Positions 8,286 through 28,957 of a stretch of 64,000 nucleotides of DNA are shown piece after piece. Source of the stretch: Blastococcus colisei (GTDB lineage Bacteria > Actinomycetota > Actinomycetes > Mycobacteriales > Geodermatophilaceae); contig NZ_VFQE01000002.1 in the NCBI RefSeq assembly GCF_006717095.1, forward strand, positions 620,001-684,000, given 5' to 3'. Below the pieces are notes generated by a model. It searched no databases. It saw only the letters and a program-made list of their open reading frames with translations, and was not told the origin of the DNA. The translations under genes and the position numbers were made by a program. Every line of letters starts with the position of its first letter. Position 1 is the first letter of the stretch.

Positions 8286-8507
8286 ATGAGCGCGACGGGG
8301 ATCCTCCTCACCGGCTGGCTGGTGACCTCGGGCGTCGTTGGGCTTCTGATCGCAGGCATGATCCGGACCGCCGAACGGAGCGATTCCGGCAGCGACGACC
8401 TCGCTCCATGGACGGTCCGGGGACCGTGCGGCGACCCGGAGGGCCACAGGGCGGGCAGGGTGCACCGCGAGTTCGACACCGACCAAGCCACCGTAGCTGG
8501 ACTGTAA
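8286..8507 (+). CDS. Small single-helix protein, hypothetical
   Basis: 73 residues starting at an ATG about 14 bp behind CTACTACT, which could be a -10 box of a leaderless transcript. Residues 4-25 (TGILLTGWLVTSGVVGLLIA) form one likely membrane helix; the rest is polar and acidic. The family was not recognised and no partner is evident. It could be spurious. Confidence 0.35.
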   Translation: MSATGILLTGWLVTSGVVGLLIAGMIRTAERSDSGSDDLAPWTVRGPCGDPEGHRAGRVHREFDTDQATVAGL

Positions 8508-8907: not shown

Positions 8908-10452
8908 GTGATGAAACTCCGTGAGGTCCTCGTGCGCCACCGTTCCCATCGCCCCCGTCACTCCTCCCGCGCCGCTGGTCGCCCCGCCCCGAAGCGTCAC
9001 TATCGCGTCCCTCTGACCGCCATGCTCGCCTGCTTGGCGCTGGCCGTCGTGCTGGCTCCGCCTGGGCTTCTCGGCGGGCGGGACGCCGTGACGCAGGGTG
9101 GCCTCGAGTCCGCCTCGCACTTCAGGACGTGGTGGTGGGCGGAGTGGTTCTCCAAGTCGACCACCGATTCGCTCCGCGGCCGCGCGGTGAAGGCCACCCC
9201 GGTCGAGGCCCGCGGAACCGCCCGGAAGGCCGCCGGACAGCGGGTGTCGAGCAGCGCTGCGACGTCGAGCAGCCGTCGCGCCGACGACGCGCGTGAGACG
9301 GCGCGGAGTACCACCGCTACGGCGCCGAGCACCGCCGGTGGGGCACGGAAGACGGGCAGCGCGGACCCGACCAGAGGTCCGGCACCGACCGCCGAACAGG
9401 GTGCGGACAGCGTCGGGTCCGCCCCCGCGACGGCAGGCTCCGCCAGGACCGGCCTCGCCAGGACCGGCTCCTCCAGCAGCGAGGGCATCCTGCTGTCCCC
9501 GGCCGAGTTGATGGCGCTGCCGACGTCCGGCCCCGGCTGGGACGCGATCATGGCACGGGTCGCAAAGCCGTACGGCGGCTCCTACACCCTCGGGACGCGG
9601 GAGGACGCGAACAAGGACGTGCTGGCCCACGCCCTCGCCGGCGCCCGCCTGGACAACGATGCCTACAAGGGCTTCGTCCGCGACAAGGTCGAGCGGATCA
9701 TGACCGCGCCGCGCAACGACGGCGACCTGCTGGCCACGTTGCGCCAGCTGCAGACGTATGTCGTCAGCGCCGACCTGATCGACCTTGCCTCGTTCGACCC
9801 GGCGCTCGACGCACGGTTCCGCACCTGGCTGGCCGCGGAGGTCCGTTTCAGCTACAGCGGGGGCGGCGGTGGCGGGTCGGTCATCTCCAATCACGACAAG
9901 AAGCCGAACAACTACGGCACGCACGCCGGCGCCACGCGTGTCGCCGCAGCCATCTACCTCGGTGACGACGCCGAGCTGCAGGCCGCCCGGGACGTCTGGT
10001 ACGGATGGGCCACCGGGGATCCCGCTTACTCCCACACGACCAGGAAGTGGACGGGCACCAGCTGGCAGTGCGACCCGAACCGTCCCGCGGGCATCAACGG
10101 TGCCGGCTGCGCCCGGGACGGCCAGAGCCTCGACGGGGTCATCCCCGAGGATCAGGTGCGCTGCGGCGAGTTCTCCCGGACCCCGTGCGAGACCAACTAC
10201 ATCCACGGCGCCACCGACGGCATGACCCTTGCCTTCTGGATGCTTGCCCGGCAGGGCGAGGACCCGTGGGCGTGGGGCGACCACGCCGCGCTGCGGCAGA
10301 TGCAGTGGAAGTACGCGAACGGGCAGGCTCCCTACAGCGGATTCCGCTGGCAGATCCCCGTCATCGAGGCCGCCTACGGCGTCGACTTCGCCGGAAACAC
10401 CGCCGATGCGACGTCGACAAACTTCGGCTTCGCCGACTGGTGGGCCCAGTGA
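8908..10452 (+). CDS. Exported alginate-lyase-like protein (first paralogue)
   Basis: 514 residues starting at adjacent GTG-ATG codons. A basic N-terminus is followed by a hydrophobic export segment at about residues 32-52 (LTAMLACLALAVVLAPPGL). About 140 low-complexity Ala/Ser/Thr-rich residues come next. A roughly 325-residue C-terminal domain follows, with KPNNYGTHAGATRVAAA, LDGVIPEDQVRCGEF and NYIHGATDGMTLAFWML. The Asn-Asn-x-Gly-x-His and DG-x-P-E-x-x-R features resemble alginate lyases of the alpha/alpha-toroid type (PF05426-like), so it may cleave a uronate-containing polysaccharide. That substrate is inference. It lies at the edge of a polysaccharide locus and is followed by a strong terminator. 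Its catalytic domain is about as long as that of the paralogue at 10808. Confidence 0.7.
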   Translation: MMKLREVLVRHRSHRPRHSSRAAGRPAPKRHYRVPLTAMLACLALAVVLAPPGLLGGRDAVTQGGLESASHFRTWWWAEWFSKSTTDSLRGRAVKATPVEARGTARKAAGQRVSSSAATSSSRRADDARETARSTTATAPSTAGGARKTGSADPTRGPAPTAEQGADSVGSAPATAGSARTGLARTGSSSSEGILLSPAELMALPTSGPGWDAIMARVAKPYGGSYTLGTREDANKDVLAHALAGARLDNDAYKGFVRDKVERIMTAPRNDGDLLATLRQLQTYVVSADLIDLASFDPALDARFRTWLAAEVRFSYSGGGGGGSVISNHDKKPNNYGTHAGATRVAAAIYLGDDAELQAARDVWYGWATGDPAYSHTTRKWTGTSWQCDPNRPAGINGAGCARDGQSLDGVIPEDQVRCGEFSRTPCETNYIHGATDGMTLAFWMLARQGEDPWAWGDHAALRQMQWKYANGQAPYSGFRWQIPVIEAAYGVDFAGNTADATSTNFGFADWWAQ

Positions 10453-10807: not shown

Positions 10808-12247
10808 TTGGCTGACCGCCGCCGCGGACTCCTTCCCGGGAGCGGAGATCGTCTCCTGACAGCTCGGGTCCGGCGGCTCTGTGCGGCCCTCGTCGTCGCG
10901 CCCGCCGTCGCCCTTCCCATGGCCGGTTCCATCGACGCCTCGGGTCCCGTCGTCATTCCCGCCGCGGCGAGCCACATCATCACCGCTGACGAGACCGATC
11001 CCCAGCACAGCGGGAACGACGGCGTTGCGGTCCATGGCATCGGCGTCGCGGTCGAGCGGGTGCAGCCGAGCCCGGACGACGGCGGTGCCGAAGCACCTCC
11101 ATCCGGGGGCGAGGGCATCCTGCTGTCGCAGGCCGAGTTGATGGAGCTGCCGACGTCCGGACCCGGCTGGGACGCCATCATGGCGCGAGTCGAGGACCCC
11201 TACGGCGGGTCCTACATCCTCGGCGAGCGGGACGACGCGAACAAGGACGTGCTGGCCCACGCCCTCGCGGGAGCCCGCCTGGACAACGCGGCGTACAAAA
11301 CCTTCGTCCGCGACAACGTCGAGCGGATCATGACCGAGCCCCGCAACGACGGCGACCTGCTGGCTACGCTGCGCCAGCTGCAGACCTACATCATCAGCGC
11401 CGACCTGATCGACCTGGCGTCGTTCGACCCCGAGCTGGACGCCCGATTCCGGACGTGGCTGGCCGACGAGATCCGCTTCGACTACGAGGGCGGTGGAGGT
11501 GGCGGGTCGGTCGTCTCGAACCACAACAGGAAGCCCAACAACTACGGCACGCACGCCGGGGCGACACGGGTCGCCGCGGCGCTGTACCTGGGCGATGAGG
11601 AGGAACTCGAGGCCGCGCGCGACATCTGGTACGGGTGGGCCACCGGTGACCCCGACTACTCGCACGAGACCCGGAGGTGGACGGGCACCGACTGGCAGTG
11701 CGATCCCGATCGTCCCGCGGGCATCAACGCCGCCGGGTGCGCCCGTGACGGCAACAGCATCGACGGAGTCCTTCCCGAAGACCAGGAACGCTGTGGCGAG
11801 TACTCATGGCCGCCCTGCGAGACCAACTACATCCATGGCGCCACCGACGGCATGACATTGACGTTCTGGATGCTGGCGCAGCAGGGGGAAGACGCGTGGG
11901 CGTGGGGTGATCAGGCAGCGCTGCGGCAGATGGAGTGGAAGTACGCGAACGACCAGCCACCCTACGACGGCTTCCGCTGGCAGATTCCGGTCATCGAGGC
12001 TGCCTACGGCGTCGACTTCCCGGGGAACGCACCGCAGGCGACGTCGACGAACTTCGGCTTCGCCGACTGGTGGGCGCAGAATGAAGGGGCTCCCGTGCCG
12101 GAGAGCCGGACGGACAGCGCTCCTGCCCCTGACCCGGAACCCCCGGCCTCCTCCGGCCCAGGGCTCTGGCTCGTCGCGGTCATCGTCGTCAGCGGCGGCC
12201 TGCTGCTGACCCTGGCGATCCTGTTCATCCGACGTTCGAGGCGCTGA
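10808..12247 (+). CDS. Membrane-anchored alginate-lyase-like protein (second paralogue)
   Basis: 479 residues from a TTG start; an internal ATG near 10918 is an alternative. A signal-type helix lies at about residues 20-42. The roughly 325-residue lyase-like domain matches the upstream paralogue almost throughout (KPNNYGTHAGATRVAAA, NYIHGATDGMTL, QIPVIEAAYGVDFPGN). Unlike the first copy it ends in a linker, one membrane helix (GLWLVAVIVVSGGLLLTLAIL) and a basic stop-transfer tail. The pair is thus one released and one cell-attached enzyme. The Ser/Thr-rich spacer of the first protein is much shorter here. The gene ends 15 bp from the convergent ATP-grasp gene. Confidence 0.7.
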   Translation: MADRRRGLLPGSGDRLLTARVRRLCAALVVAPAVALPMAGSIDASGPVVIPAAASHIITADETDPQHSGNDGVAVHGIGVAVERVQPSPDDGGAEAPPSGGEGILLSQAELMELPTSGPGWDAIMARVEDPYGGSYILGERDDANKDVLAHALAGARLDNAAYKTFVRDNVERIMTEPRNDGDLLATLRQLQTYIISADLIDLASFDPELDARFRTWLADEIRFDYEGGGGGGSVVSNHNRKPNNYGTHAGATRVAAALYLGDEEELEAARDIWYGWATGDPDYSHETRRWTGTDWQCDPDRPAGINAAGCARDGNSIDGVLPEDQERCGEYSWPPCETNYIHGATDGMTLTFWMLAQQGEDAWAWGDQAALRQMEWKYANDQPPYDGFRWQIPVIEAAYGVDFPGNAPQATSTNFGFADWWAQNEGAPVPESRTDSAPAPDPEPPASSGPGLWLVAVIVVSGGLLLTLAILFIRRSRR

Positions 12248-12261
12248 GGAATCCGCCGCCC

Positions 12262-13536
12262 TCAGCCGGACCGTCGCGCCCGGAGAGCCGTTCGGCGCTC
12301 CCGGACCCGCCCCCCGGACAGCATCGTGAGCCTGCCCAGCGCCTTGCGCGTCGACTGCAGCAATTCGTGGAGGAACGGTGCCGGATCCGACCGCGAGAGC
12401 ACGGCGTGTGTCTTCGGCCCGCGCACGGAGCGGAGCCACTCCCCCGGCGTCAGCTCACCGCGTCTGAGGAAGTAGAGAGCCGACTGCATGTCCCGGCGAT
12501 CGTCGATCCACTTCGCCCCCCCGTATCGCTGCTCCCTGGCCGACGGCAGCGGCAACCCGACCATGTCGCAGTAGGCGGTGTAGAGCAGTTCGACGCCACC
12601 GCCCTCCGCGATGGCCGAACGGCCCGTCGGCCGGCCGATGTTCGGCTCGACGATCAGGTGCCGGCCAGTTCGCGCGTCCCGCTTCATCTCGACGTACCCG
12701 AGGCCCCGGTAGCCGAGCCCGGCGAACAGGCGCACCGTCTCGTCGAGGACGACGTCGTTCCGGCACTCCTCACCGAGGCTGCTGGTCCCGGTGTGCGGCG
12801 GCCATTGACGCAGCTTCCGCGCGACGAAGGTGGCGCGAGGGCGCGAGGCCTGGTCGAAGTAGACGTTGCATGAGAAGAGGGCGTCCACTCCGCCGTCGAT
12901 CCACTCCTGGGCGATGAACCGCTCCGACCACGGGGCCACCCGGTCGTAGACAGCGAGCAGTTCTTCGCCGTTGGCCAGCTGGAACGCCCTTTCCTTCGTC
13001 TGCGACTGCCAGGCCGCGGACTTCATCGGCGGCTTGAGCACCGCCGGGTAGCTCAAGGTCCGTGCCGCGTGCTCGGCGTCGCCGCGGTTCTCGATGATCA
13101 CAGTGGCCGGAACGGGCAAGCCGTTCTCCTGCGCATGGCGCAGGAAGGCGACCTTGTCCATGAGCATCTCGACCACGGCGTGGTCGGGTAGTGCGATGTG
13201 GAACCAGGGAATGAGCCGGTCACGATGGCTCGAGATCATCAGGACCGTCAGATCCGTGCACGGGATGAGCGCCGCCCGCCCGTCGAGCTGGGGCCCCAGG
13301 CGCAGGAGCGAATCGATGAGGTTCTCGCTGCCGAGATCGGCCTGGACGATCTGCCGGCACGCGCGGGTCCTCGACGCGTAGTGCCGCCGGTCGTTGGTCA
13401 GCCCGACGACCGGCACACCTCGCGCCGCCAGGATGCGTGCGGTCTGCAGACCGGTGATCGTGTCCAGACCGATGACGACGGCTGTCGGCCCGGTCACCTC
13501 GCGCGCCACCGTCCCCGTGACCGAACCGGAGATCAA
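12262..13536 (-). CDS. ATP-grasp ligase of the phosphonate-type operon
   Basis: 424 residues from a TTG start overlapping the PEP mutase stop (TTGA), with AGGAG about 10 bp ahead; the frame stays open upstream but inside pepM. The N-terminus is a Rossmann-like preATP-grasp domain (AVVIGLDTITGLQTAR). The ATP-grasp fold follows, with YPAVLKPPMK (nucleotide Lys near 168), FIAQEWIDGG, GYVEMKRD and IVEPNIGRP (metal-binding Glu and Asn near 297-299). Such enzymes join a carboxylate to an amine through an acyl-phosphate. Translational coupling to pepM suggests the acid is a phosphonate or its product, conjugated to an amino acid or amino sugar (inference). Other polysaccharide loci have similar ligases of unknown substrate. 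Confidence 0.8.
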   Translation of the reverse strand: MISGSVTGTVAREVTGPTAVVIGLDTITGLQTARILAARGVPVVGLTNDRRHYASRTRACRQIVQADLGSENLIDSLLRLGPQLDGRAALIPCTDLTVLMISSHRDRLIPWFHIALPDHAVVEMLMDKVAFLRHAQENGLPVPATVIIENRGDAEHAARTLSYPAVLKPPMKSAAWQSQTKERAFQLANGEELLAVYDRVAPWSERFIAQEWIDGGVDALFSCNVYFDQASRPRATFVARKLRQWPPHTGTSSLGEECRNDVVLDETVRLFAGLGYRGLGYVEMKRDARTGRHLIVEPNIGRPTGRSAIAEGGGVELLYTAYCDMVGLPLPSAREQRYGGAKWIDDRRDMQSALYFLRRGELTPGEWLRSVRGPKTHAVLSRSDPAPFLHELLQSTRKALGRLTMLSGGRVRERRTALRARRSG

Positions 13537-14429
13537 CCTCCGGACTCCTCGAGCGCGATCGTCTCCTTGGTCTTGACGAGCTCGAAGATGTGGTCGACCG
13601 CCGCGATGTGCGGATCGACCGCGGCAGCCTTGCGCTCGGACCGGAGGATGCCCAGCGTGTCCTCCATGGCCTGGACAGCTGCCCGCATCGGGTGGTTGGC
13701 GAGGATAACCATCTGGAAGCCCTTCTCGTGGAGCTCCTGGTCGGTGTAGTCGGGGAAGAGCGTCGGCACGGCCACCAGCGGGGTCTTGCCCAGACCTCCC
13801 CAGGTACCGAGGAACCCTTCGATCTCGCGCAGCGACTTGTCCTTCGAGTGGATCAGGATGGCATCGGCGCCGGCCTCGACGTAGGCGTCGGCCCGTTCGC
13901 ATGCCGCCTCGATGCCATGACCGGCGATCAGCGCCTCCACACGGGCGACCAGGACGAACGAGTCGGTCTCCTGCGCCTGCTTGCCCGCCCGGATCCGGCG
14001 CGCCTGCTCATCGGCGGGGATGAGCTCTCGCCTGGAGTCCCCGGTGTAGAGGCTGTTCCTCTTGGGGAAGAGGTTGTCCTCGATGCAGATGCCGGCGATA
14101 CCGCTCCGCTCGAACTCGACGACGGTGCGCACGACGTTGGTCAGGCCGCCGAATCCGTTGTCGCAGTCGGCTAGGACCGGCAGGTCGGTCGCGCCGTCGA
14201 TACGGACGGCTGCCGCCAGAGTCTCCGTCATGGTCGTCAGGTTCAGGTCCGGCAGTGCATGGGTCATCGTGGCGACGCCGAAGCCGCTCACCCACACCGC
14301 GTCGAAGCCGTAGGCCTCGATGAGCTGGGAGCTCATGGCATCGTGTGCCCCCACCGCCACGTACGGCTTGTCGGCCGCGAGCCCGGCGCGCATCGCGGCG
14401 CGCTTCTTCTCAGCACGATTGAGTCGCAT
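13533..14429 (-). CDS. pepM: Phosphoenolpyruvate mutase (phosphonate biosynthesis)
   Basis: 298 residues, the usual length; start ATG at 14429 behind GAAGAAGGATCTG. This PEP mutase/isocitrate lyase superfamily enzyme rearranges PEP to phosphonopyruvate, forming a C-P bond. Aligned by eye to Mytilus PEP mutase as I remember it, the active-site set is retained: Asp61, Asp88 and Asp90 (LADCDNGFGG), Glu117, Lys123 and Asn125 (IEDNLFPKRNS), Arg163 (VARVEALIAG) and His194 (AILIHSK). The signature normally reads EDKxFPKxNS; here its first Lys is Asn119. The lyase-type KKCGH motif is absent. A phosphonopyruvate hydrolase is the main alternative. No decarboxylase neighbour is visible, but a 2-hydroxyacid dehydrogenase gene lies 52 bp upstream and an ATP-grasp gene overlaps downstream. 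Confidence 0.87.
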   Translation of the reverse strand: MRLNRAEKKRAAMRAGLAADKPYVAVGAHDAMSSQLIEAYGFDAVWVSGFGVATMTHALPDLNLTTMTETLAAAVRIDGATDLPVLADCDNGFGGLTNVVRTVVEFERSGIAGICIEDNLFPKRNSLYTGDSRRELIPADEQARRIRAGKQAQETDSFVLVARVEALIAGHGIEAACERADAYVEAGADAILIHSKDKSLREIEGFLGTWGGLGKTPLVAVPTLFPDYTDQELHEKGFQMVILANHPMRAAVQAMEDTLGILRSERKAAAVDPHIAAVDHIFELVKTKETIALEESGG

Positions 14430-14481
14430 CAGATCCTTCTTCCGCTGGTGGTTGTTCCGGGTGATCGAGGTGCGGCCAGGG

Positions 14482-15456
14482 TCACGGGGCGGTCCCGGCC
14501 ACGATCTCCTCCGGGTGCAGCTGCTGGTCGAGGCAGCCCTGCTCGTGCGCGCGGAGCAACTCGACGACCCGTTCGCCGATGAGCCGCTGGGAGTCCCATG
14601 CCATTGCGCCGATGTGCGGGCTGAGGACGACGTTGGGCAGAGCGGCGAGGGGGGACAGCACTCCCTCCCCTTCGCGCTCGTGTACGTCCAAGGCGGCCCC
14701 CAGAACCCGCCCACCCTCCCTGAGCTCGGTGAGCAGGGCCTGCTCGTCCACGACGCCGCCCCGAGCCACGTTGACCAGGAACGACCGCTCCTTCATGCGC
14801 GACAGGACGTCCGCGCCGATCATGTGGTGGGTGCGTTCGTCGAGCGGGACGTGCAGGCACAGGAAGTCGGACTCGGCGACCACCGTGTCGAAGTCGGTGA
14901 GGCTGATGCCCCGATCCGCCAGAGCAGCCTGCACCCCCGCATGTGGATTGTCGACACAGCCGATGGCGCGCATCCCCCACGCGGCCCCCATCTCGCCGAC
15001 GCGGCTACCGATGCGACCCGCCCCGACGATGCCGATGGTCTTGCCGGCCAGGAGCGGCCCGCCCAGCTCGGCCTTCGGCCAGTGGCCCTCGCGGAGCAGG
15101 CGATCGGCCAAGGTGACCTTCCGGGCCAGGCTGAGCAGCAGCGCGAAGGTCAGCTCGGCAACCGGCTGTGCCGACGAACCGGGTACCCGCACGACCTGGA
15201 CGCCGCGCTCGAAGGCGTAGGGAAGGTCGATGTTGTCCAGACCGGATCCGGCCCGCACCAGCAGGGCCAGGTTCGGGGCGGAGTCGAGGACCTGCGCCGA
15301 GATCGTGACGCCGCTGCGGAAGATCACCGCCTCGCGGTCGGCTACGAGCGTGGCTAGCTCTTCCTCGGACGCATTGAACGCCCGCACCACGTCGTGGTCA
15401 CGCTCGAGCGCGTCAATCGCGGCTGGGTCGATCGAGCTGGCGAGGAGGATCTTCAC
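14482..15456 (-). CDS. D-2-hydroxyacid dehydrogenase, possible phosphonopyruvate reductase
   Basis: 324 residues from a GTG overlapping the preceding stop by 4 bp. It has the two-domain plan of the family: NAD-binding GAGRIG at 145-150 with Asp169 at the end of the second strand (favouring NAD over NADP), catalytic Arg232 (VNVARGGVVDE), an acidic residue near 260 (LDVHEREGEG) and His281 (SPHIGAMAWDS). It most resembles phosphoglycerate-dehydrogenase-type enzymes but lacks an ACT domain. Next to PEP mutase, the natural proposal is reduction of phosphonopyruvate to phosphonolactate, as described for VlpB in valinophos biosynthesis. This is inference from context. Confidence 0.82.
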   Translation of the reverse strand: MKILLASSIDPAAIDALERDHDVVRAFNASEEELATLVADREAVIFRSGVTISAQVLDSAPNLALLVRAGSGLDNIDLPYAFERGVQVVRVPGSSAQPVAELTFALLLSLARKVTLADRLLREGHWPKAELGGPLLAGKTIGIVGAGRIGSRVGEMGAAWGMRAIGCVDNPHAGVQAALADRGISLTDFDTVVAESDFLCLHVPLDERTHHMIGADVLSRMKERSFLVNVARGGVVDEQALLTELREGGRVLGAALDVHEREGEGVLSPLAALPNVVLSPHIGAMAWDSQRLIGERVVELLRAHEQGCLDQQLHPEEIVAGTAP

Positions 15457-16136
15457 GTGCGCCTCTTCTCGAAGAATTCGGTGATGACGGTTGCTACGTC
15501 CTTGGCGACGGCATCCAGCGGGCGGTCGGCGTCGACCACCTCGGAATGCGGAAGCATGTGAGCGAACTGCAGGTACTGCCCACGTCGGCGCTCCAGCCAT
15601 TCCACGCTCGCTTCGTGCTTGCGGTCGAAGAGCACCTGACCGGGCGCATCGAGGCAGATCACGAGGTCCGGCTTCGGATAGACGTGCTTCAGAAGGAAGC
15701 CGTGGACGCGCGAGGTGGCTGATCGACGGCCTTCCGTTGCGATGTCGAAGTGGTAGTAGTCGGCGTAGAAGTGGCGGTCGAACACCACGATCGAGCCGCG
15801 CCTCCGGTGGTACTGGGCGACCGTCTGACGGAACCACTCCTCGGCCAGCCACATCAGCAGCCGGGCCCCCCGAGCGATGCCCTTGAGGACTCGCCGGACC
15901 GGGTTGCCGGTCGCCGGCGGGACCTGCTCCGAAGGAGCCACCATGTCAGGACGACGGCCACGGGCCTTCTTGACGGCGAGTGCCAGCCGGGTGGTGGGCA
16001 GCATCAGGCCGCTCGCCTCGAGATTGACGCCCATGTAGATGCGCTTCACCGGCGCCGGCATCGGTTCACGCTCGAGCAGCGCGGTGATGGTGCTCTTGCC
16101 TGCGCCGTCCGGGCCGATGATCGCAACGCTGATCAT
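15453..16136 (-). CDS. Thymidylate-kinase-like P-loop kinase
   Basis: 227 residues from an ATG; first gene of the operon and overlapping the dehydrogenase by GTGA. The P-loop is IIGPDGAGKST (residues 6-16), followed by the DR-type motif VVFDRHFYADYYHFD and an Arg-rich lid (ERRRGQYLQF). These are features of the nucleoside monophosphate kinase fold. It differs from housekeeping thymidylate kinases by a long basic insertion around residues 55-95. Similar proteins occur in actinobacterial polysaccharide clusters with no proven substrate. Here it could phosphorylate a phosphonate or nucleotide intermediate (inference). A cellular tmk role is unlikely given the operon. Confidence 0.75.
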   Translation of the reverse strand: MISVAIIGPDGAGKSTITALLEREPMPAPVKRIYMGVNLEASGLMLPTTRLALAVKKARGRRPDMVAPSEQVPPATGNPVRRVLKGIARGARLLMWLAEEWFRQTVAQYHRRRGSIVVFDRHFYADYYHFDIATEGRRSATSRVHGFLLKHVYPKPDLVICLDAPGQVLFDRKHEASVEWLERRRGQYLQFAHMLPHSEVVDADRPLDAVAKDVATVITEFFEKRRT

Positions 16137-16897
16137 GCAAGGACCCGAGCGGCAGCCGTGCCGGCCGCGCGGCCCATGCAGGCGTATCCAGCGAGCTGCA
16201 TGCTCAGCGTCCCCTTCGGCATTGCGGGGGTGACCTCGGCTCTCGATCCCCGTCGGCGTTCACACGTGTACGTCGGTCACAGACCGTTCCGCTTCCCTCG
16301 GTCGCTGATATGGCTTCCCGGCAATTGCTCTCACCGGGGTCCGGCTCGAACGACAGAGCACTGACCGGTCCAATGTCCGACACGGTCAGTGTCCGGGGGA
16401 CAGTAGGCGTTACCGACCGCAACCGTCCAGACGAATGATCACCGGACCGGGCGCCCGTCGAACCAGGCGTGCCCCCGGGACGGAGGCGCAGCCCCCGGAC
16501 GGTGGTCCGCGGACCCCCGCGACCGTGTCCGCCGTGGGAATGATTCGTCCCCGCCGCCGGCCTGAGCGCGGAAGGATCTGTCGTGGTCGAGACGGAGCGA
16601 TCCGTCGTGCCCGAGGACATGGCCTGCCACGGCATCACACGAAGCGCTAACGTCGCGGCTCCGTGCGACACGGGAACGGGCTGGCCTCATGAAGGAGACG
16701 AGCGGCTTTGGGTAGCGGCCGGATGGGAACCGCGTGATCGTCAGCGCCATGCCCGTCGTCGATCGCCCCCTCGGTGCCCGGCGGGACACTCCTGCCGACG
16801 ACGGGGTGATGAACGGGCACGGCGTGCGGCGGATCGGGGCCCCGGAGCCGCTCACCGGCGGGTGCGCCCTGCCCTGCTGCACCGGGGTGGCCGTCCG
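16137..16897. other. Divergent promoter region with inverted repeats and tiny ORFs
   Basis: 760 bp between the phosphonate-type operon (leftward) and the flippase (rightward). CACTGACC (16359-16366) and GGTCAGTG (16384-16391) form an 8-bp inverted repeat with a 17-bp spacer; an overlapping dyad GACAC/GTGTC lies at its right side. Further right, TAACGT (16649-16654) could be the -10 of a transcript that starts near a GTG at 16663. From there a 9-codon ORF and an 8-codon ORF (16689) follow, linked by an ATGA overlap. They may be leader peptides, but evidence for translation is weak. Confidence 0.45.
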
Positions 16898-16901
16898 ATG
16901 A
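16734..16901 (+). CDS. Small Cys-containing ORF coupled to flippase gene
   Basis: A 55-codon frame from GTG 16734 (a 50-codon version starts at ATG 16749) whose TGA overlaps the flippase ATG as ATGA. The peptide ends GGCALPCCTGVAVR, with three cysteines close together, and is otherwise Arg/Gly/Pro-rich. No family was recognised. The overlap is the same device used throughout this locus and is the main reason to list it. It may simply be a translated leader. Confidence 0.3.
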   Translation: MIVSAMPVVDRPLGARRDTPADDGVMNGHGVRRIGAPEPLTGGCALPCCTGVAVR

Positions 16902-18520
16902 GCGGGTCTCGTCGCCTGCCGGCCGACCAGGGTCCTCGCCCGGACGACGGCCCGCCTCCCATGGCGGCGGCGCCCGACGACGCGCCCGGCGTAGCCGGAG
17001 GCGTCGCCGACACCGGCGAGATGCGCCGCACCCAGGTCCGGGGATCGACGCTCCTCGTGGTGGGTCGCATCCTCGCCCTGCTTCTCACCACGACGACGCA
17101 GATCGTGCTGGTGCGTGCGCTGACGATGAGCGACTTCGGCGCCTTCGGCTACGCGCTGGCGATCGCCTCGGCCGGACGGCTGCTGCTCTCCCTCGGTCAG
17201 GGCAAGCTGCTCAGCCGGTTCACCGCCAAGTACGAGGAGGAGCGCGACTACGATCGGATGTTCGGCAGCATGATCCTCGCCGCGGGGACGATCCTGCTGA
17301 CCAGCACGGTCTCGCTCGTCGCCCTCTTCATGCTGGCCGACGCCCTGGTCGGTTCGGCGGTGAGCGACCCGGCGACCGTGAAGGTCGTGCTCATCCTGGT
17401 CTTCCTGGCTCCGCTGGAGGCATTCGACCAGGTCTTCGTCTCACTCTTCGCGGCCTTCAGCAAGCCCCGCGCGATCTTCTTCCGCAAGTACCTGCTCACG
17501 CCGTCCCTGCGGCTCGCGGTCGTGCTGATCCTCGCCCTGACCGGCTCGTCCGTGACCTTCCTCGCCATCGGCTACGTGGCCGCGGGCGTCGTGGGACTGG
17601 CCCTGAACGTGACGCTGTTCGCCCAGGTACTGCGCGAACGCGACCTCCTCCGGCACCTGCGACTCCGCCGAGTCGTCCTGCCGTACCGGGCGGTCTTCTC
17701 GTTCTCCCTGCCGTTGATCACCGGCGAGCTGCTCACCCTGTCGCTGACCGTCGGCGGCGTCTTCATCCTCGCCTACTACCACTCGGCCGCCGAGGTGGCC
17801 GGCTACCGCGCAGTCTTCAACCCGGCCCGCCTGAACACTGCGGTCCTCCATGCCTTCGTCCCGATGTTCCTGCCGCTCGCCGCTCGGTTGTTCGCGCGGT
17901 CGGACATCGACGGTCTCCGCCGGACCTACTGGCAGACCGGCGCCTTCGTCGCAGTCCTGACGTTCCCGGTGTTCGGGCTGACCGGGCCCATGGCGGAGGA
18001 CACCACCGTCCTGTTGTTCGGAGAGGCCTACGCCGATTCCGGGCTCGTCCTCGCGCTGCTGTCCGCGGGCTACTACTTCAGCGTCGTGCTGGGCTTCAAC
18101 ACCTATGCCCTCCAGATCTGCGGGCGCATCCGGTTCCTCGTCGGCGTCAACACCGTCACGGCGGTGTTCAACGTTGCTCTCAGCCTGCTGCTCGTCCAGC
18201 GATACGCGGCGGTCGGCATAGCCATCGCGAACCTGAGCGCCCTCGTCCTGCAGAACGTGGTCAACCAGTGGGCGCTGCGACGCGCCCTGGGCACCTCGTT
18301 CATCGACCGCCGTTGCGCACTCTGCTACCTGGTGATTCTGTGCTCTGCCGCCGCGCTGTGGGCGTTCCAGGTGCTGGTCGACCCAGGACTGGTCCTGGGG
18401 CTGGCGTCCGTGGCCGTCGCCTCCGTCGTCGTACTCGTCGTCAGCCGCCGGGCGATCGAGCTGGGCGACACGTTTCCCGAGCTCCGCCGCGTACCGGTCC
18501 TACGGCTGCTCGTCCCATGA
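16898..18520 (+). CDS. Wzx-type polysaccharide flippase (MATE/MOP superfamily)
   Basis: 540 residues with about 14 hydrophobic helices after a cytoplasmic, Pro/Asp-rich N-terminus of some 45 residues. The first helix region (STLLVVGRILALLLTTTTQIVLVRAL) followed by SDFGAFGYALAIAS is the classic start of polysaccharide-biosynthesis MOP proteins, which flip undecaprenyl-linked repeat units to the outer face. The start is the ATG at 16898; an in-frame extension to 16583 is open but Arg-rich and unlike a protein N-terminus. A GT2 gene follows after 40 bp. Together with the ligase at 24522 it defines a Wzx/Wzy-type export route. Confidence 0.85.
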   Translation: MSGSRRLPADQGPRPDDGPPPMAAAPDDAPGVAGGVADTGEMRRTQVRGSTLLVVGRILALLLTTTTQIVLVRALTMSDFGAFGYALAIASAGRLLLSLGQGKLLSRFTAKYEEERDYDRMFGSMILAAGTILLTSTVSLVALFMLADALVGSAVSDPATVKVVLILVFLAPLEAFDQVFVSLFAAFSKPRAIFFRKYLLTPSLRLAVVLILALTGSSVTFLAIGYVAAGVVGLALNVTLFAQVLRERDLLRHLRLRRVVLPYRAVFSFSLPLITGELLTLSLTVGGVFILAYYHSAAEVAGYRAVFNPARLNTAVLHAFVPMFLPLAARLFARSDIDGLRRTYWQTGAFVAVLTFPVFGLTGPMAEDTTVLLFGEAYADSGLVLALLSAGYYFSVVLGFNTYALQICGRIRFLVGVNTVTAVFNVALSLLLVQRYAAVGIAIANLSALVLQNVVNQWALRRALGTSFIDRRCALCYLVILCSAAALWAFQVLVDPGLVLGLASVAVASVVVLVVSRRAIELGDTFPELRRVPVLRLLVP

Positions 18521-18560
18521 TCTGCACGAATCCGCCATCTGCGAAGGAAGAGATGCTCCC

Positions 18561-19613
18561 GTGACGCTGTCGAAGAACGCCGGCCGGGCACGTCCCGGGC
18601 CGGGCGAAGCCGTGTCCGACGCACAGGAGGCGACGGAGGACCTGGTCAGCGTCATCATCCCGGCTCGTAACGAGGAGCGCTCCATCGGGGCGACGCTCGA
18701 TGCCCTCCGGGGTCAGGACTACCGCAACCTGCAGATCATCGTCGCCGACGGCGGGTCGACCGACGGCACGGTGGCGGTCGTGCAGAGGCATATGGCTGAG
18801 GACCCGCGGGTCGAGCTGGTGCACAACCCGCGGCAGATCACCCCCGTCGCCCTGAACGTCGCGACCGCGCAGGCGCGCGGACCGTGGCTGGTGCGGATGG
18901 ACGCCCACTCGATGGTCGATGCCGGGTACGTGGGCGGGGCGGTGGCCCGGTTGCGCGAGGGACGCTGGGGTGGGGTCGGTGGCCGCAAGGACGGCGGCGC
19001 CGCCACCCCGCCCGGTCGGGCCATCGCCGCGGCCCTCGGCAGCCGGTTCGGGGTCGGTGGGTCGGTCTACCACCACGGCATCAGGGAGCAGGAGGTCGAC
19101 CACATCCCGTTCGGTGCCTATCCCACCGAGCTGGTGCGCCGGCTCGGCGGTTGGGACGAGCGCCTCATGACCAACCAGGACTTCGAGTTCGACTATCGGC
19201 TGCGCCGGAGCGGCGCCCGGCTGCTCTTCGATCCGCGGCTGCGGATCGCCTGGCAGAGCAAGGAGTCGGTGCGCGACTTCTATCGCCAGTACCGCCGCTA
19301 CGGACGCGGCAAGGTGGACGTCGCACTGCTGCACCCCCGGTCGCTGCAACCACGACACCTCGGGCCGCCGCTCCTCATCGCATACCTCGTCGCGTCCGCT
19401 GCGGTCGGGGTGCGCAGGCCGGGTCGGGCCGCGGCCATGGTGGCCCCGTACGCCGTCGCTCTGACCGCCGCCTCGGTGACCACTGCCCGCACGCTGGAGG
19501 ACCCTCGAGCACGGCCGTTCGTGCCGGCCGCGTTCCTCGCGATGCACATCGGCTGGGGTATCGGCGTCTGGTCCCGCGCGGTGGAGCTGCTTACCCGCAG
19601 GACGACGCGGTGA
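18561..19613 (+). CDS. GT2 glycosyltransferase
   Basis: 350 residues from a GTG with GGAAGAG upstream. The GT-A domain has VIIPARNEE (near 32), DGGSTDG (63-69), a metal-binding acidic region in VRMDAHS, and LGGWDERLMTNQDFEFDYRL with the ED-like acceptor-site acids. Two or three hydrophobic helices near the C-terminus (PLLIAYLVASAAVGV and following) anchor it to the membrane. It resembles succinoglycan ExoA-like transferases that add a sugar to a lipid-linked repeat unit. Its TGA overlaps the GTG of the HPr-kinase-like gene by 4 bp. The sugar donor is not predictable. Confidence 0.85.
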   Translation: MTLSKNAGRARPGPGEAVSDAQEATEDLVSVIIPARNEERSIGATLDALRGQDYRNLQIIVADGGSTDGTVAVVQRHMAEDPRVELVHNPRQITPVALNVATAQARGPWLVRMDAHSMVDAGYVGGAVARLREGRWGGVGGRKDGGAATPPGRAIAAALGSRFGVGGSVYHHGIREQEVDHIPFGAYPTELVRRLGGWDERLMTNQDFEFDYRLRRSGARLLFDPRLRIAWQSKESVRDFYRQYRRYGRGKVDVALLHPRSLQPRHLGPPLLIAYLVASAAVGVRRPGRAAAMVAPYAVALTAASVTTARTLEDPRARPFVPAAFLAMHIGWGIGVWSRAVELLTRRTTR

Positions 19614-20767
19614 GGGCCGTGCCGGCTGCCGAAGAAGCCGTGGACGACGTGATCGCACCTCACGTGGACTTCGACCTGCATGGCATCGTCGGGCTGCGCT
19701 TGCTCGACCCACGGGCGCAGGACGTCGACACGATCACCCGCCAGATCGGACCCCTGACCGCCCCGTTGACCGGGGACCCCGACATCACGGTCAGACTCGT
19801 GGACCGCCTTCCGGATCCGGGTCGCCTCACCTACGCCGGCTGGCCGGATTCGGCCGCCGCAGGCGACGACTTCTTCGTGCTCCGAGGACGGGACGGGGTC
19901 GCCGCGCGCACCCTGCTGCCGGTGGATGCCGTAGGCGGACGCTGCGACATCGTGTGCGAGCGGCGGGCCGGTGCCGTGCCGCACCTGCTCGCCGTCATCA
20001 ACCTGACCGCCCTGGCCAAGGGGGTCCTGCCCTTGCACGCCTCCGCGTTCACCTATAGGGGAGCCGGCGTGCTCGCCACGGGCTGGGCGAAGGGCGGGAA
20101 GACGGAGACGTTGCTTGCATTCGCCGCGCGAGGCGCCCACTACGTCGGTGACGAATGGGTCTATCTGACCCCGGACGGGAACATGTACGGCGTCCCGGAG
20201 CCGATCAGGCTCTGGCACTGGCACGTGGCGCAGCTGCCTGCTCTGCGTGCCACGCTCCCCTGGAGCACCAGGGCCCGGCTCGGCGCGCTGCCATCCATCG
20301 CGTCGTCGACGACAGCTCTGGCCGGCGCCCTCGCCGGACTACCCGCCTCGGTGCTGCGGCGGACCGCACCGGTGCTGCGTCGTCAGGCGTACGTCCAGGT
20401 TCCACCGGCCCGCCTCTTCGGTGCGGACGCCATCGCCTTGCGCGGGCGCCTCGATCACATCGTGCTCGTCGTCAGCCACGACCGGGACGACGTCAGCATC
20501 GAACCGGTTCCCGGCACCCAGGTCGCCGCCCGCATGCTGGCCTCACTCGAGGACGAACGCAGCCCTTTCCTCCAGCTCTACCGCCAGTTCCGGTTCCTGT
20601 TCCCGGATCGCCGGGCCGCCGTCGTGGAAGAGGCGCCCGCGATCGAGCGCCGGCTGCTCGAGCAGACCCTCTCCGACCGGCCGGCGCATCTGCTGCGCCA
20701 TCCGTATCCCGTGCATATCGAGTCGCTGGTCGAACCCGTCGAGCAGATGCTGCGGGCCGCGCGGTGA
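19610..20767 (+). CDS. HPr-kinase/phosphorylase-like protein
   Basis: 385 residues from a GTG overlapping the GT2 stop. The central part carries the HprK C-terminal-domain pattern: a PLHASAF strand, P-loop TGWAKGGKTE (about 157-166), then HYVGDEWVYL with acidic residues near 181-182. This fold phosphorylates Ser or sugar-like hydroxyls. There is no PTS or HPr gene nearby, and the N-terminal 130 residues do not look like the HprK sensor domain. Such orphan HprK-like kinases occur in actinobacterial polysaccharide and peptide clusters. Coupling to a glycosyltransferase suggests a substrate on the polymer pathway (inference). Confidence 0.7.
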   Translation: MRAVPAAEEAVDDVIAPHVDFDLHGIVGLRLLDPRAQDVDTITRQIGPLTAPLTGDPDITVRLVDRLPDPGRLTYAGWPDSAAAGDDFFVLRGRDGVAARTLLPVDAVGGRCDIVCERRAGAVPHLLAVINLTALAKGVLPLHASAFTYRGAGVLATGWAKGGKTETLLAFAARGAHYVGDEWVYLTPDGNMYGVPEPIRLWHWHVAQLPALRATLPWSTRARLGALPSIASSTTALAGALAGLPASVLRRTAPVLRRQAYVQVPPARLFGADAIALRGRLDHIVLVVSHDRDDVSIEPVPGTQVAARMLASLEDERSPFLQLYRQFRFLFPDRRAAVVEEAPAIERRLLEQTLSDRPAHLLRHPYPVHIESLVEPVEQMLRAAR

Positions 20768-20885: not shown

Positions 20886-22112
20886 ATGAGGGCGGCCGGT
20901 ACCGACGCCGTCGGCGCGTTGCGCTGGGGCCTGCGCCGCTACCGCTGGCTGGTCCTCGCTTGCCTCGTTCTCGGGGCGGTCGTGGCGCCGCGCGCGGAGG
21001 CGCGCTTCGAGACCCCCGTCGAGGCGGAGTCCCTGGTCATCGCGCAAGTTCTCGACATGGACCTCGTCGCGCTCCCCCGGTACGGCGAGGCGGTCTTCGA
21101 CAACGGGGCGGTCGCCGAAGCTGTCGCAGCGCGGTTTCCCGACATCGACGAGTTCGATGACATCGTCCCGAACCGGATCTCCTTGGTCGCCGAGCAGGAC
21201 TCCATCGTCTTCCGGGTCGTCGGTCGCGACGTCGACCCGCAGATCGCAGCCGATCTGGCCAACACCGCCACCGAGGCCTTCCTCCCGGCGCTCAACGCCA
21301 CGGGAGTCGGTGCGGGCCTCTTCGCCTTGCAGAGCCCGGCGACGCCGCCCGCCGTCGAGGAGGACAGGCTCGGCAGCCTGATCGCCATTCCGATCGGACT
21401 GGTCGCCGGACTCTTCCTCGCCCTCACGCTGGTGTCCTTGTTCCTCATCGTCCGCCGGCCGATCATCGCGGCGGAGGATGCCGAGGAGGCAACTGGGGTT
21501 CCGGTTCTCGGCACGGTGAAGGTGCCCCGGACGCGGCGCGGGGTGTACGCGCCGCCCGAGGAGTTCCCCGGCCTGGTCCCGGTGTGCCGCCGCCTGCTCC
21601 ACCTATCCACGTCAACGCTGGTACTGGTCAGTCAGCGCCGTGACAGAAGGGCTCGCGCGCAGCTCACGGCAGCGCTGGCGAAAGTTCTCGTGCGCGTCCG
21701 TGACGTCCGTCTGATCGGCCCCACGGTGCCGGAGCTGAACGGCGTTCGCTCCATCGGCACGTTCGAGCTCGAGGAGATGGTCGCAGAGCTGGAGGTCGCT
21801 GCCGGCGCACCCCCTAGCGATTCGAACGGGGCCCGCGGGACCGGCCGAGCGCGCATCACCATCGTCGACAGCAGCGAGCCACTGGATCTCGTCCAGCCAC
21901 CGCGACTGACCGCGACCGTCCTCGTCTTCCGAGAGGGCATCCGCAGCGCTGCCCTGCAGGCCGCAGTCGTGGAGCACCTGGGCGGCAGCGCGGAGGCCCG
22001 GCTACTGCTCGTCAAGAAGGGCCGCTGGTCGCGGGCCAGGCCGAAGCCCCACGTCGAGGTGACCGAGGACGTGGACCCCCGGGAAGCCGCAATGCTGGCC
22101 GACAAGAGCTGA
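20886..22112 (+). CDS. Wzz/chain-length-like membrane protein (first paralogue)
   Basis: 408 residues from an ATG with GCAGGAG just upstream. A first membrane helix (about 19-37) is followed by an extracytoplasmic region of some 120 residues with the Wzz-like pattern of long helices. A second helix (about 162-185, IAIPIGLVAGLFLALTLVSLF) leads to a cytoplasmic region starting RRPIIAAEDAEEATGVPVLGTVKVPR. That join is typical of polysaccharide co-polymerases fused to a BY-kinase domain, but here the kinase P-loop is missing, leaving a degenerate domain. It likely sets chain length or assists export. A close paralogue lies at 30159. Confidence 0.75.
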   Translation: MRAAGTDAVGALRWGLRRYRWLVLACLVLGAVVAPRAEARFETPVEAESLVIAQVLDMDLVALPRYGEAVFDNGAVAEAVAARFPDIDEFDDIVPNRISLVAEQDSIVFRVVGRDVDPQIAADLANTATEAFLPALNATGVGAGLFALQSPATPPAVEEDRLGSLIAIPIGLVAGLFLALTLVSLFLIVRRPIIAAEDAEEATGVPVLGTVKVPRTRRGVYAPPEEFPGLVPVCRRLLHLSTSTLVLVSQRRDRRARAQLTAALAKVLVRVRDVRLIGPTVPELNGVRSIGTFELEEMVAELEVAAGAPPSDSNGARGTGRARITIVDSSEPLDLVQPPRLTATVLVFREGIRSAALQAAVVEHLGGSAEARLLLVKKGRWSRARPKPHVEVTEDVDPREAAMLADKS

Positions 22113-24521: not shown

Positions 24522-25832
24522 CTAACGACCGTCCTGTCCCGCTGCCACGAGGGTGCGGTCCTGCGACGGCGCACAAGGGACATTCCCCGCACGCGCCGCC
24601 GCGGCGACCGATCCCGAGACAGCGACGTAGATGAGCACCGCCCAGAAGAACTTGTACTCGAGGTTGGAGAGGAAGAACGACCCCACCAGGGTGCCGAGGA
24701 TGGCGCCCACGGGCGGGCCCCGCATCAGCGGCGGCAGGCGCAGCGCCGTCACGACGGCGATCCCCAGCCCGACGAGGACCAGGACGAGGCCCAGCACACC
24801 GGCCTCGATCAGCGCGAGGAGGTAGACGTTGTGCGGTTCGAAGGCCGTTCCCCGCCGGAGGACCTTGGCCTCCGCGACCGACGCCCGTTCCTCGGCGTAG
24901 ACGGTCGGGAACCCGCCCCACCCCGCCCCGGTGAGGCAGTAGTGGCGGCAGGCGTACACCCCCACTGCCCAGATCTCAGACCGCCCGGACGTCGATTCCT
25001 TGCCGAGCTGGCGCTCGCCGATACCGCCGGGGTTCACCACGATGACGAAGGTGAGCAGCACCGTGGCGGTCGCCATCAGCGCGATCTTCGAGGCACGCGG
25101 CGCGACACCGAACAGCACGACCGCCCCGACGACGACGATCACGGCGAGCAGCCCGCCGCGGGACCCGGTCATGACGACGCCGAACAGCAACCCCAGCGTC
25201 ACGGCGCCGTACACCAGCCGCCCGGTGACCGCTCCCGCCACGGTCCGCCCGGCCGCGATCGCCGTGGGGAGGAGGAGTGAAGCGGCCTGGTTGTTGGCGC
25301 CCAGCAGGTCCTCGCCGAAGCGCGCCCCACCGGCCTCGCCCGTCGGCAGGCCGCCGAGGAACAGGAGTTGCGCGAGGCCGTAGCCGACGACCAGGACGCC
25401 GCCCAGCAGGATCGCGTTCTCGAAGCGCCGCAGCGTCGTCTGGTCGAACCGGGTCAGGACCAGGGCGACGAAGAGCACCACCAGGCTCGCCAGGACCGCG
25501 AAACCGTCGGTGGTGTCCGTCGGCGACACGCTCCAGAACAGCGAGAACCCGCACAGTGCGAGGAAGGCCAGCCAGACCGGCACCGCGAGCGAGATGTGGG
25601 CGCTCCCGCGACGCGTCGTGACCAGCTGCACGAGCAGTCCGAGCCCGAGGAGGACCCCCAGCAGCGACGACACCGACCCGAACGCCCCGGGCCCGATCGA
25701 GATCAGGGAGCTGAAGGGGATGAGGACCGCGTAGGGCGGCATCGCGTAGCGCAACGGGTCGCGGATGCAGGCGACGACGTACGCGACCAGGAGCGGCGAC
25801 AGAGCCACCGCGACCAGCAACGTCGTCGACAT
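24522..25832 (-). CDS. O-antigen ligase / Wzy-type polymerase
   Basis: 436 residues with about 11-12 hydrophobic helices and, between later helices, a long outer loop carrying LGKESTSGRSEIWAVGVYAC, GAGWGGFPTVY and FEPHNVYLLALIEAGVLGL. This Wzy_C-type signature (R-x-x-IW, G-x-G, H-N) is shared by O-antigen ligases and polymerases. It would polymerise or transfer the repeat unit exported by the flippase. Start ATG 25832 has GGAGGAG seven bases ahead. It is the first gene of a leftward unit (ligase, sulfotransferase, APH-like kinase) and is divergent from another sulfotransferase gene, with 73 bp between the starts. Confidence 0.85.
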   Translation of the reverse strand: MSTTLLVAVALSPLLVAYVVACIRDPLRYAMPPYAVLIPFSSLISIGPGAFGSVSSLLGVLLGLGLLVQLVTTRRGSAHISLAVPVWLAFLALCGFSLFWSVSPTDTTDGFAVLASLVVLFVALVLTRFDQTTLRRFENAILLGGVLVVGYGLAQLLFLGGLPTGEAGGARFGEDLLGANNQAASLLLPTAIAAGRTVAGAVTGRLVYGAVTLGLLFGVVMTGSRGGLLAVIVVVGAVVLFGVAPRASKIALMATATVLLTFVIVVNPGGIGERQLGKESTSGRSEIWAVGVYACRHYCLTGAGWGGFPTVYAEERASVAEAKVLRRGTAFEPHNVYLLALIEAGVLGLVLVLVGLGIAVVTALRLPPLMRGPPVGAILGTLVGSFFLSNLEYKFFWAVLIYVAVSGSVAAAARAGNVPCAPSQDRTLVAAGQDGR

Positions 25833-25905
25833 GCGAGCTCCTCCTCCGTCGGACTGGGGGATGGTTGCACACACCCCCGCCGGAGGAACCGGTAAGTTGC
25901 CCGCA

Positions 25906-26904
25906 ATGAGTCGCACGAAGGTGCTGTCGATCGTCGGCCCCGGCCGAAGTGGGACCACCCTGCTCGCCGGTGTTCTCGGCGAGGTCGACGGCGTGTGCAA
26001 CGTCGGGGAACTGCGGTGGCTCTGGCACCGGGGGATCCTGCAGCGCCGCCCCTGCGGGTGCGGACGGCCGCCGGACGAGTGTCCCGTCTGGTCCCAGGTC
26101 ATCGCGAAGCTCGCGATGGGCAGCACCGAGACTCCCGCCGGGGTGGTCGCGGCGCAGGACGAGCTGGCGGCTCGCCGGCACCGGTTGCGCGTGATCCGTG
26201 GCGCGACGAGAGCGGACCCGGACTGGAGTGCGCTGCAGCGGGTGCGCGCCGTCACCGGGCAGCTGATCCGGGCGATCACCGACGTGACCGGAGCGCGGGT
26301 GATCGTGGACAGTTCCAAGCGGGCTCAGGACGCCGCCGTCCTCGCGGGTCTGGACGAGGTCGACCACTACGTGGTGCACATCGTGCGCGACCCGGCCGCG
26401 GTCGCCTTCTCGTGGCAACGGCGGGACAAGACCGTCCAGGTCGGGGACCAAGTCCACACGATGACCACCCGGCGACTGCTGCCCAGCCTGCAGCGCTGGT
26501 CGGAGAACGCTCTCAGCGCCGAGGTGCTGCGACGCTGCGTTCCCTCCGAGCGCTGGATGTTCCTGCGCTACGAGGACTTCGTGGCTGCCCCCCGGCCCAC
26601 CGTCTCCCGGCTCCTCGCCTTCCTCGGGGAGGAGGAGAACGCGCCCTTCGTCGACGAGGACAGCGTCGTCCTGGGCCTCCAGCACACGGTGGCCGGCAAC
26701 CCCAACCGGTTCCGCGTGGGCCGGATCCGGATCACCCTCGACGACGAGTGGAGGTCGCGGATGCCCCGGCGACGGCGGCTGCTCGTCCGCGCCCTCACTT
26801 GGCCCCTCCTGCTGCGCTACCGCTACCCGGTGGGTGACGCGACCGCCCGCTCCCGTCCGACGGATCCGTCAGCACGAGAGCGGCAGTCCCCGGCAGAGCC
26901 GTGA
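25906..26904 (+). CDS. PAPS-dependent sulfotransferase (type 2)
   Basis: 332 residues from an ATG lying about 12 bases behind TAAGTT, possibly a near-leaderless transcript. The 5'-phosphosulfate loop is IVGPGRSGTTLLAGVLG (about 9-25). The 3'-phosphate region is VVHIVRDPAAVAFSWQRRDK, and RYEDFVAAP follows. Close cysteines (RPCGCGRPPDECPVW) suggest a structural disulfide or metal site. It is only distantly similar to the sulfotransferase at 23421, so the two probably modify different positions. An APH-like kinase gene follows after about 105 bp, mirroring the order in the divergent unit. Confidence 0.85.
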   Translation: MSRTKVLSIVGPGRSGTTLLAGVLGEVDGVCNVGELRWLWHRGILQRRPCGCGRPPDECPVWSQVIAKLAMGSTETPAGVVAAQDELAARRHRLRVIRGATRADPDWSALQRVRAVTGQLIRAITDVTGARVIVDSSKRAQDAAVLAGLDEVDHYVVHIVRDPAAVAFSWQRRDKTVQVGDQVHTMTTRRLLPSLQRWSENALSAEVLRRCVPSERWMFLRYEDFVAAPRPTVSRLLAFLGEEENAPFVDEDSVVLGLQHTVAGNPNRFRVGRIRITLDDEWRSRMPRRRRLLVRALTWPLLLRYRYPVGDATARSRPTDPSARERQSPAEP

Positions 26905-28183: not shown

Positions 28184-28957
28184 TCAGCGTCTCTGGAGTC
28201 GCAGCCTCTCCGCCATCCGCTTGACCCGCCGGACGTTCCCGGCCCCGATGTCGGAGGTCCGGACCCGCGCGTAGGGCCGCGTCGCCTTGAGGCGGACGGT
28301 GAGCGGACCGTTGTTGCGGTAGACGCCGATCCGGGGCACGGCGTACTCGTCCACGTCTTCGGCCCGTTCGGGCAGCGCGAAGGCGTGCGTGTAGCCGGCC
28401 CGCGCCGCGGCCCTGCGGACGTGCGGACTGTGCCGGCCCCGGGGATAGGCCAGCAGCGGGACCGGGACGCCGAGCAGCTCGGACAGCAGTTCCCGACTGT
28501 CACGCAGATCGCGCACGCATTCGGCCTCGGAGAGCTGCGTGAGGTCGTGGTGGGCCCAGCTGTGCGACTGGAAGTCCACTCCGGCGTCGCGCATCTCCAG
28601 CACCTGGTCCGGCGTCAGGGTGGAGAGCGGCTCGGGACCCGCCGTGTCCACCCAGTCGACCGGTCGACCGGCAGGTGTGAGGGTCTGAGCGACGAGGAAG
28701 ACCGTCGCCGGCAATCTGCCCCTCATCAGCACCGGGAGCGCATGCGTGTGGAGTTCGGCGAACCCGTCGTCGAAGGTCAACGCCGCGTGGCCGCGGGGCA
28801 GCCGGCCACGGGCATCCAGCTGCGGCAGCGCGTCGCGAAGAGGCATCACCCGCCGGTTCCTGCGCAGCCAGGCGGCCTGTCCCGCGAACGCGTCCGGCCG
28901 CACGGCGAGCGGCGACTCCCACGTCGGATGCAGCGAGTGGTAGCACAGGATCGTCAT
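28184..28957 (-). CDS. Polysaccharide deacetylase (NodB-type, CE4)
   Basis: 257 residues; the ATG overlaps the stop of the GT4 gene (ATGA). It begins MTILCYHSLHP. The catalytic strand ALTFDDGFAELHTHALP holds the paired Asp, SHSWAHHDLTQL supplies the two metal-binding His, and LLAYPRGRHSPHVRRA is the third motif. No signal peptide or membrane helix is seen, so it appears cytoplasmic and would act on a lipid-linked or nucleotide-sugar intermediate, not on finished polymer. Removal of N-acetyl from an amino sugar is the family reaction. It may create the free amine used by another modification. Confidence 0.85.
   Translation of the reverse strand: MTILCYHSLHPTWESPLAVRPDAFAGQAAWLRRNRRVMPLRDALPQLDARGRLPRGHAALTFDDGFAELHTHALPVLMRGRLPATVFLVAQTLTPAGRPVDWVDTAGPEPLSTLTPDQVLEMRDAGVDFQSHSWAHHDLTQLSEAECVRDLRDSRELLSELLGVPVPLLAYPRGRHSPHVRRAAARAGYTHAFALPERAEDVDEYAVPRIGVYRNNGPLTVRLKATRPYARVRTSDIGAGNVRRVKRMAERLRLQRR

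Follow-up and report, generated by a model that had tools for sequence, protein, structure and literature searches.

In valinophos biosynthesis, phosphonolactate is reached through the D-2-hydroxyacid dehydrogenase VlpB, as described by Zhang et al. 2022 (cited in PMC12871164 and PMC12723261), and a 2-hydroxyacid dehydrogenase is able to drive phosphonopyruvate synthesis (PMC12871164). In Pnt loci (PMC6697681), the phosphoenolpyruvate (PEP) mutase PepM serves the decoration of cell-surface glycans. Here, we describe a gene module comparable to both systems in a window of 64,000 nucleotides from Blastococcus colisei (contig NZ_VFQE01000002.1, positions 620,001 to 684,000); the genome of 5.16 Mb is 100% complete. 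Four leftward genes encode a thymidylate-kinase-like protein (TMPK-like), a D-2-hydroxyacid dehydrogenase (HADH), PepM and an ATP-grasp carboxylate ligase. Their placement in the first-pass annotation was rechecked and is correct: the TMPK/HADH and PepM/ATP-grasp junctions are 4-bp overlaps (GTGA and TTGA, respectively), and a 52-bp spacer separates HADH from PepM.

Like the valinophos system, the module has HADH beside PepM in place of phosphonopyruvate decarboxylase (ppd) and an ATP-grasp ligase downstream, but its PepM belongs to a clade with an EDN motif, it includes TMPK-like and HprK-like kinases, and it lies in a polysaccharide locus. With Pnt loci it would share the use of PepM for cell-surface glycan decoration, and related PepMs of the EDN/CS type are indeed fused to an NTP_transf_3 domain and accompanied by ppd. 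However, the window PepM is unfused (298 aa), no nucleotidyltransferase was recognized in the module, and a reductase replaces the decarboxylase; the Pnt combination of ppd with a nucleotidyltransferase fused to or beside PepM is therefore not what we find here.

On balance, we favor a reading in which the module makes 3-phosphonolactate and tailors a surface polysaccharide with it. Judging from family, residues and phylogeny, PepM very probably isomerizes PEP to phosphonopyruvate. HADH would then reduce phosphonopyruvate to phosphonolactate and thereby pull the unfavorable mutase equilibrium instead of ppd, a step which we consider likely from the invariable linkage of both genes and the active site resembling that of phosphoglycerate dehydrogenase (PGDH). 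More speculatively, the TMPK-like and HprK-like kinases could phosphorylate the phosphonate or a hydroxyl of the product or conjugate, the ATP-grasp enzyme could activate the carboxylate and couple it to an amino group on a glycan precursor, and flippase, polymerase and chain-length genes could export and polymerize the tailored glycan. That the product is bound to a surface glycan seems reasonably likely, while an amide linkage made by the ATP-grasp enzyme is rather doubtful. The first-pass interpretation was borne out in part: it survived each refutation test that was run in silico, but a VlpB-linked clade and an unaltered PepM signature were not supported, and the amide-forming role of the ATP-grasp enzyme is only a possibility.

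PEP mutase and its dehydrogenase partner

In a maximum likelihood tree of 100 sequences, the window PepM falls within a monophyletic clade of 17 members (support 100/100) among EDN-type PepMs, the exact sister group not being resolved. The clade comprises six Geodermatophilaceae, metagenome-assembled genomes (MAGs) of Nocardioidaceae, Acidimicrobiaceae and another actinobacterium, three Chloroflexota and five KSB1. The canonical Streptomyces enzymes with EDK, the hydrolase 2dua and the lyases all lie outside it; the grouping with phosphonopyruvate hydrolases or lyases that would have refuted the first-pass interpretation was not seen. A hydrolase identity was rejected, since the clade stands apart from 2dua and position 122 is Asn rather than Thr, and membership in the methylisocitrate-lyase branch was rejected by tree and loop residues. 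PepM matches PF13714 at 1e-54 (186.1 bits, above the gathering score of 31.5), its top NCBIfam model is TIGR02320 (8e-76; hydrolase 195.9 and PrpB 176.6 bits), and the closest solved structures are PEP mutases and phosphonopyruvate hydrolase. It retains W44, S46, D58, D85, D87, E114, K120, N122, S123, R159 and H190 (M. edulis numbering), of which the nine from D58 to H190 are invariant throughout the clade. The patchy occurrence over phyla suggests horizontal transfer, although sampling is thin; spread by plasmids was rejected, as no plasmid record reached 60% identity. Among 395 sampled genomes from the class and 400 from the phylum Chloroflexota, no module members came up beyond the seeds; the module is therefore rare.

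The same HADH gene lies directly upstream of pepM, on the same strand, in 17 of 17 clade members, as the first-pass annotation had proposed to check, and ppd was found in none of these genomes (0/17). The valinophos-type arrangement is thus present, and the earlier statement that the window has no decarboxylase extends to the whole genome and to the 16 relatives. HADH matches PF02826/PF00389 and the PGDH model TIGR01327. Its closest solved relative is 1wwk (2.2e-63), and it shares the catalytic Arg, Glu and His with SerA/PHGDH, but lacks the regulatory C-terminus and has EGEG, the motif of its monophyletic clade (96/94), in place of ExP. Also retained are the FRSG and RAGSG arginines, which we take to be the PGDH phosphate pocket. 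Since phosphonopyruvate and 3-phosphohydroxypyruvate are one oxygen apart, a PGDH-type enzyme would be a sensible phosphonopyruvate reductase. A role as housekeeping enzyme of serine synthesis was rejected, as the genome has its own SerA-like paralog (L138, at C1:1223880), placed, like other paralogs, outside the HADH clade.

Outside this clade, the closest HADH (43% identity) is encoded in a Streptomyces locus (L120), our valinophos surrogate, assigned by gene content and not by VlpB sequence. Its cluster contains PepM, HADH, a semialdehyde-dehydrogenase-like protein, a PGK-like kinase and an iron-containing alcohol dehydrogenase, with no ppd within 7 kb, which presumably fits the published valinophos logic. 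The last three enzymes, which would lead from phosphonolactate to a diol in L120, have no counterpart among the annotated genes of the window module or its flanks. A VlpB-linked PepM clade, as envisaged before, does not include the window protein: the L120 PepM stands elsewhere on the tree, in the canonical Streptomyces clade, and for this reason the HADH-PepM pairing appears convergent, having arisen at least twice. The window system would accordingly represent an HADH-driven, valinophos-like pathway independent of valinophos on the PepM tree.

The pair could also work in the catabolic direction, HADH oxidizing environmental phosphonolactate and PepM turning phosphonopyruvate into PEP. Mutase thermodynamics, with PEP favored more than 500-fold (PMC12871164), would suit this. 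However, no transporter or phosphate-starvation gene was recognized in the module, C-P lyase is absent from all 17 clade genomes, and the ATP-consuming ligase, kinases and glycan genes indicate synthesis; we regard catabolism as very improbable.

Other module members and the surface-polysaccharide context

The ATP-grasp enzyme was assigned by profile search and by fold (model pLDDT 87, with PurK, CPSase, RizA and Ddl as the top fold matches at E-values of 1e-16 to 1e-19). Its nucleotide-site motifs are intact, and LKPP, EMK and EPNxGRPTGR are conserved. The TMPK-like protein has a weak Pfam match (1.1e-5), and its family profile matches thymidylate kinases at 5.7e-9; homologs lie directly upstream of HADH in nine of the compared loci (L006-L010, L014, L015, L018, L019). 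A fifth conserved member, overlooked before, is an HprK-like protein seen in 10 loci by locus comparison and alignment. In L015 and L018 its gene abuts the rest of the module, and in L012 and L016 it comes directly after the ATP-grasp gene. Its profile matches 3tqf at 8.8e-5, its fold matches HprK/P and PEPCK, and a Walker A motif is present. FomB phosphorylates a phosphonate; the HprK-like protein has a weak hit to the NCBIfam model for FomB (8.5e-5), which was not used, as it covers only the P-loop region and is far below cut-off.

Of 115 Geodermatophilaceae genomes, six have a close copy (at least 67% identity) of PepM, and for ATP-grasp, TMPK and HprK the genomes with such copies are precisely these six again; pairwise distances of the five module proteins correlate (r 0.83-0.95). 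Compared with L006, divergence across window positions 12262-20764 is mosaic: fourfold-site identity is 0.76-0.83 for PepM and ATP-grasp, but only 0.50-0.61 for TMPK, HADH, HprK and flippase, which suggests recombination near the HADH/PepM junction.

The location in a polysaccharide locus, pointed out by the first-pass annotation, is conserved in other phyla. In L015 (Chloroflexota), the order flippase-HprK-TMPK-HADH-PepM-ATP-grasp-deacetylase-Wzz-epimerase-family 4 glycosyltransferase is encoded on one strand as one exopolysaccharide operon. SLBB, Wzc-like and sugar-transferase genes surround the module in the KSB1 loci, Bac_transf lies near it in L018 and L021, and Wzy_C and FemAB occur in L017. 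Because polysaccharide genes recur around the module and follow this one-strand order in L015, we prefer a surface glycan to a free small molecule. A soluble natural product, i.e., a small molecule with phosphonolactate in it (a phosphonopeptide, or an ester, assembled by the ATP-grasp enzyme) that is merely encoded in a polysaccharide locus, would agree with the sporadic distribution (6/115), which resembles secondary metabolism, with the condensation-carrier-thioesterase protein near the module in L017, and with what the text of PMC12723261 quotes on VlpF, namely that ATP-grasp ligases act in this way in phosphonate clusters. Nevertheless, the module is found among glycan genes time and again in several lineages, in L015 even within a single operon, and only module and glycan genes were seen recurring in the locus comparison, which makes a soluble product unlikely.

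The EDN motif and other points of doubt

A number of observations weigh against the phosphonolactate-glycan reading. The TIGR02320 score of PepM (254.7 bits) is under the curated equivalog cut-off of 319.55; among 47 Streptomycetaceae genomes in which PepM was matched, just 5 reach this cut-off, although many of the PepMs there adjoin ppd. The motif is EDNLFPKRNS (EDNxFPKRNS in the clade) and not the diagnostic EDKX5NS. The absence of ppd is less firm in several relatives represented by incomplete MAGs, while it is firm in near-complete isolate genomes. The distance correlation among module proteins partly reflects organismal descent; moreover, TMPK is missing from the KSB1 loci examined and from L021, and HprK from L017 and L021. 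Finally, another Geodermatophilaceae genome (G100, locus L153) has a 57% identical homolog of the ATP-grasp enzyme without PepM, and since the family exists without PepM, its role may not involve phosphonate at all.

Because this homolog adjoins FemAB, an alanine-racemase-like gene and a MurJ-like flippase, the comparison supports a role of the ATP-grasp enzyme as surface-polymer ligase, not specifically a phosphonate one. The amide-forming role proposed earlier is not supported in its original form. The L153 set itself (8045-13142) may be a ligase system that serves the cell wall or a surface polymer.

Regarding the motif, K116 is replaced by N in 17 of 17 clade members, together with T88N, whereas NS is retained; across the 100-sequence alignment, N or S occurs at 116 only where position 88 is N (46 sequences). 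The earlier claim that PepM keeps all catalytic residues is consequently right for the nine invariant positions, but wrong for the third motif residue. Because EDKX5NS is not matched, we call the window protein a PepM-family variant with inferred mutase activity. Further PepMs with EDN (EDN/CS type, EDNxFPKRCS; L022-L039, L041, L043-L047) are related (mostly 44-54% identical). In both members that were scanned, PepM is fused to a nucleotidyltransferase domain of the MobA-like kind (NTP_transf_3), and ppd was found in 8 of 9 EDN/CS-type genomes tested (the standalone L042 counted), mostly split. The K116N change is therefore compatible with phosphonate synthesis.

The altered motif and the low score could also mean that no phosphonate is made. 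The PepM-like protein would then act as a decarboxylase or C-C lyase, as members of the isocitrate-lyase superfamily switch reaction easily, and HADH would reduce the ordinary 2-keto acid so supplied to a hydroxy acid, e.g., lactate or glycerate carried by the glycan. However, the loop reads FPKRNS with K120 and N122/S123, not KKCG or KRCGH as in lyases, and the related EDN enzymes accompany ppd and carry nucleotidyltransferase fusions; we judge this quite unlikely.

Surveys in PMC6697681 and PMC12723261 define PepM by the EDKX5NS filter, and the clade, with EDN instead, is thus excluded from them. This blind spot affects two PepM clades found here, one of which has the nucleotidyltransferase-fused members and co-occurs with the decarboxylase. 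It is possible, a little short of an even chance, that the module represents an unrecognized route hidden by the demand for EDKX5NS, in which an EDN PepM and a PGDH-derived reductase provide phosphonolactate that is activated by the TMPK-like and HprK-like kinases and the ATP-grasp enzyme and placed in a surface polysaccharide, with an attachment unlike the nucleotidyl-phosphonate route. If true, this would be a second, decarboxylase-free bacterial route to surface C-P bonds. To our knowledge, phosphonolactate has not been reported on glycans so far. Cultured strains suited to direct testing are Geodermatophilus telluris DSM 45421 and Blastococcus sp. DSM 46786.

Gene neighborhood and further observations

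The module and its neighboring genes are listed in Table 1; sulfotransferases are also found in the flanks.

Table 1. Module genes and surrounding features in the window.
Feature	Coordinates	Strand	Remarks
Alginate-lyase-like secreted protein, copy 1	8908..10452	+	
Alginate-lyase-like protein, copy 2	10808..12247	+	C-terminal membrane anchor
ATP-grasp carboxylate ligase, 424 aa	12262..13536	-	TTG start 13536, stop 12262
PEP mutase (PepM), EDN/NS clade, 298 aa	13533..14429	-	ATG 14429, stop 13533
D-2-hydroxyacid dehydrogenase (HADH), PGDH-like without regulatory domain, 324 aa	14482..15456	-	GTG 15456, stop 14482; proposed phosphonopyruvate reductase
Thymidylate-kinase-like P-loop kinase (TMPK-like), 227 aa	15453..16136	-	ATG start; first gene of leftward operon
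Polysaccharide flippase	16583..18520	+	PF13440/PF01943; true start probably downstream
Family 2 glycosyltransferase	18561..19613	+	
HPr-kinase/PEPCK-fold kinase-like protein (HprK)	19610..20764	+	P-loop GWAKGGKTE, GDEW; start codon uncertain
Conserved membrane protein, chain-length-determinant-like	20886..22112	+	by inspection, no Pfam match
O-antigen ligase/polymerase (Wzy_C)	24522..26318	-	true start probably downstream
Polysaccharide deacetylase (PF01522)	28184..29845	-	domain in 3′ part of ORF
Family 4 glycosyltransferase	28954..30042	-	

The tandem pair of alginate-lyase-like secreted and anchored proteins adjoins the window module, and an alginate-lyase gene flanks the L015 module, too. 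In the KSB1 loci L012 (10912-15382), L016 and L020, a trio of DUF4956, VTC-domain and CotH-kinase genes follows PepM; in L012 and L016 it sits between PepM and ATP-grasp. Around the PepM/HADH pair of L017 (3811-16371), we found the condensation-carrier-thioesterase nonribosomal peptide synthetase protein, a serine hydroxymethyltransferase, a methyltransferase and FemAB, possibly pointing to a peptidyl variant of the product.

The EDN/CS group is a second EDN group likewise missed by the EDKX5NS filter. Its standalone member from Streptomyces SID3343 (L042/L125) has 334 aa, and neither ppd nor HADH was found for it. The PepM-like proteins of L126, L127 and L128 combine an EDS motif with N at position 88 and sit on long branches, and those of L126 and L127 adjoin HADH-like proteins with altered active-site motifs. 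The L046 contig is labeled as a Klebsiella pneumoniae MAG, but its PepM clusters with a sequence from an alphaproteobacterial MAG, and the bin is probably mislabeled. Upstream of the locus in the window, a transposase-like gene (3736-5127, minus strand) was recognized by eye.

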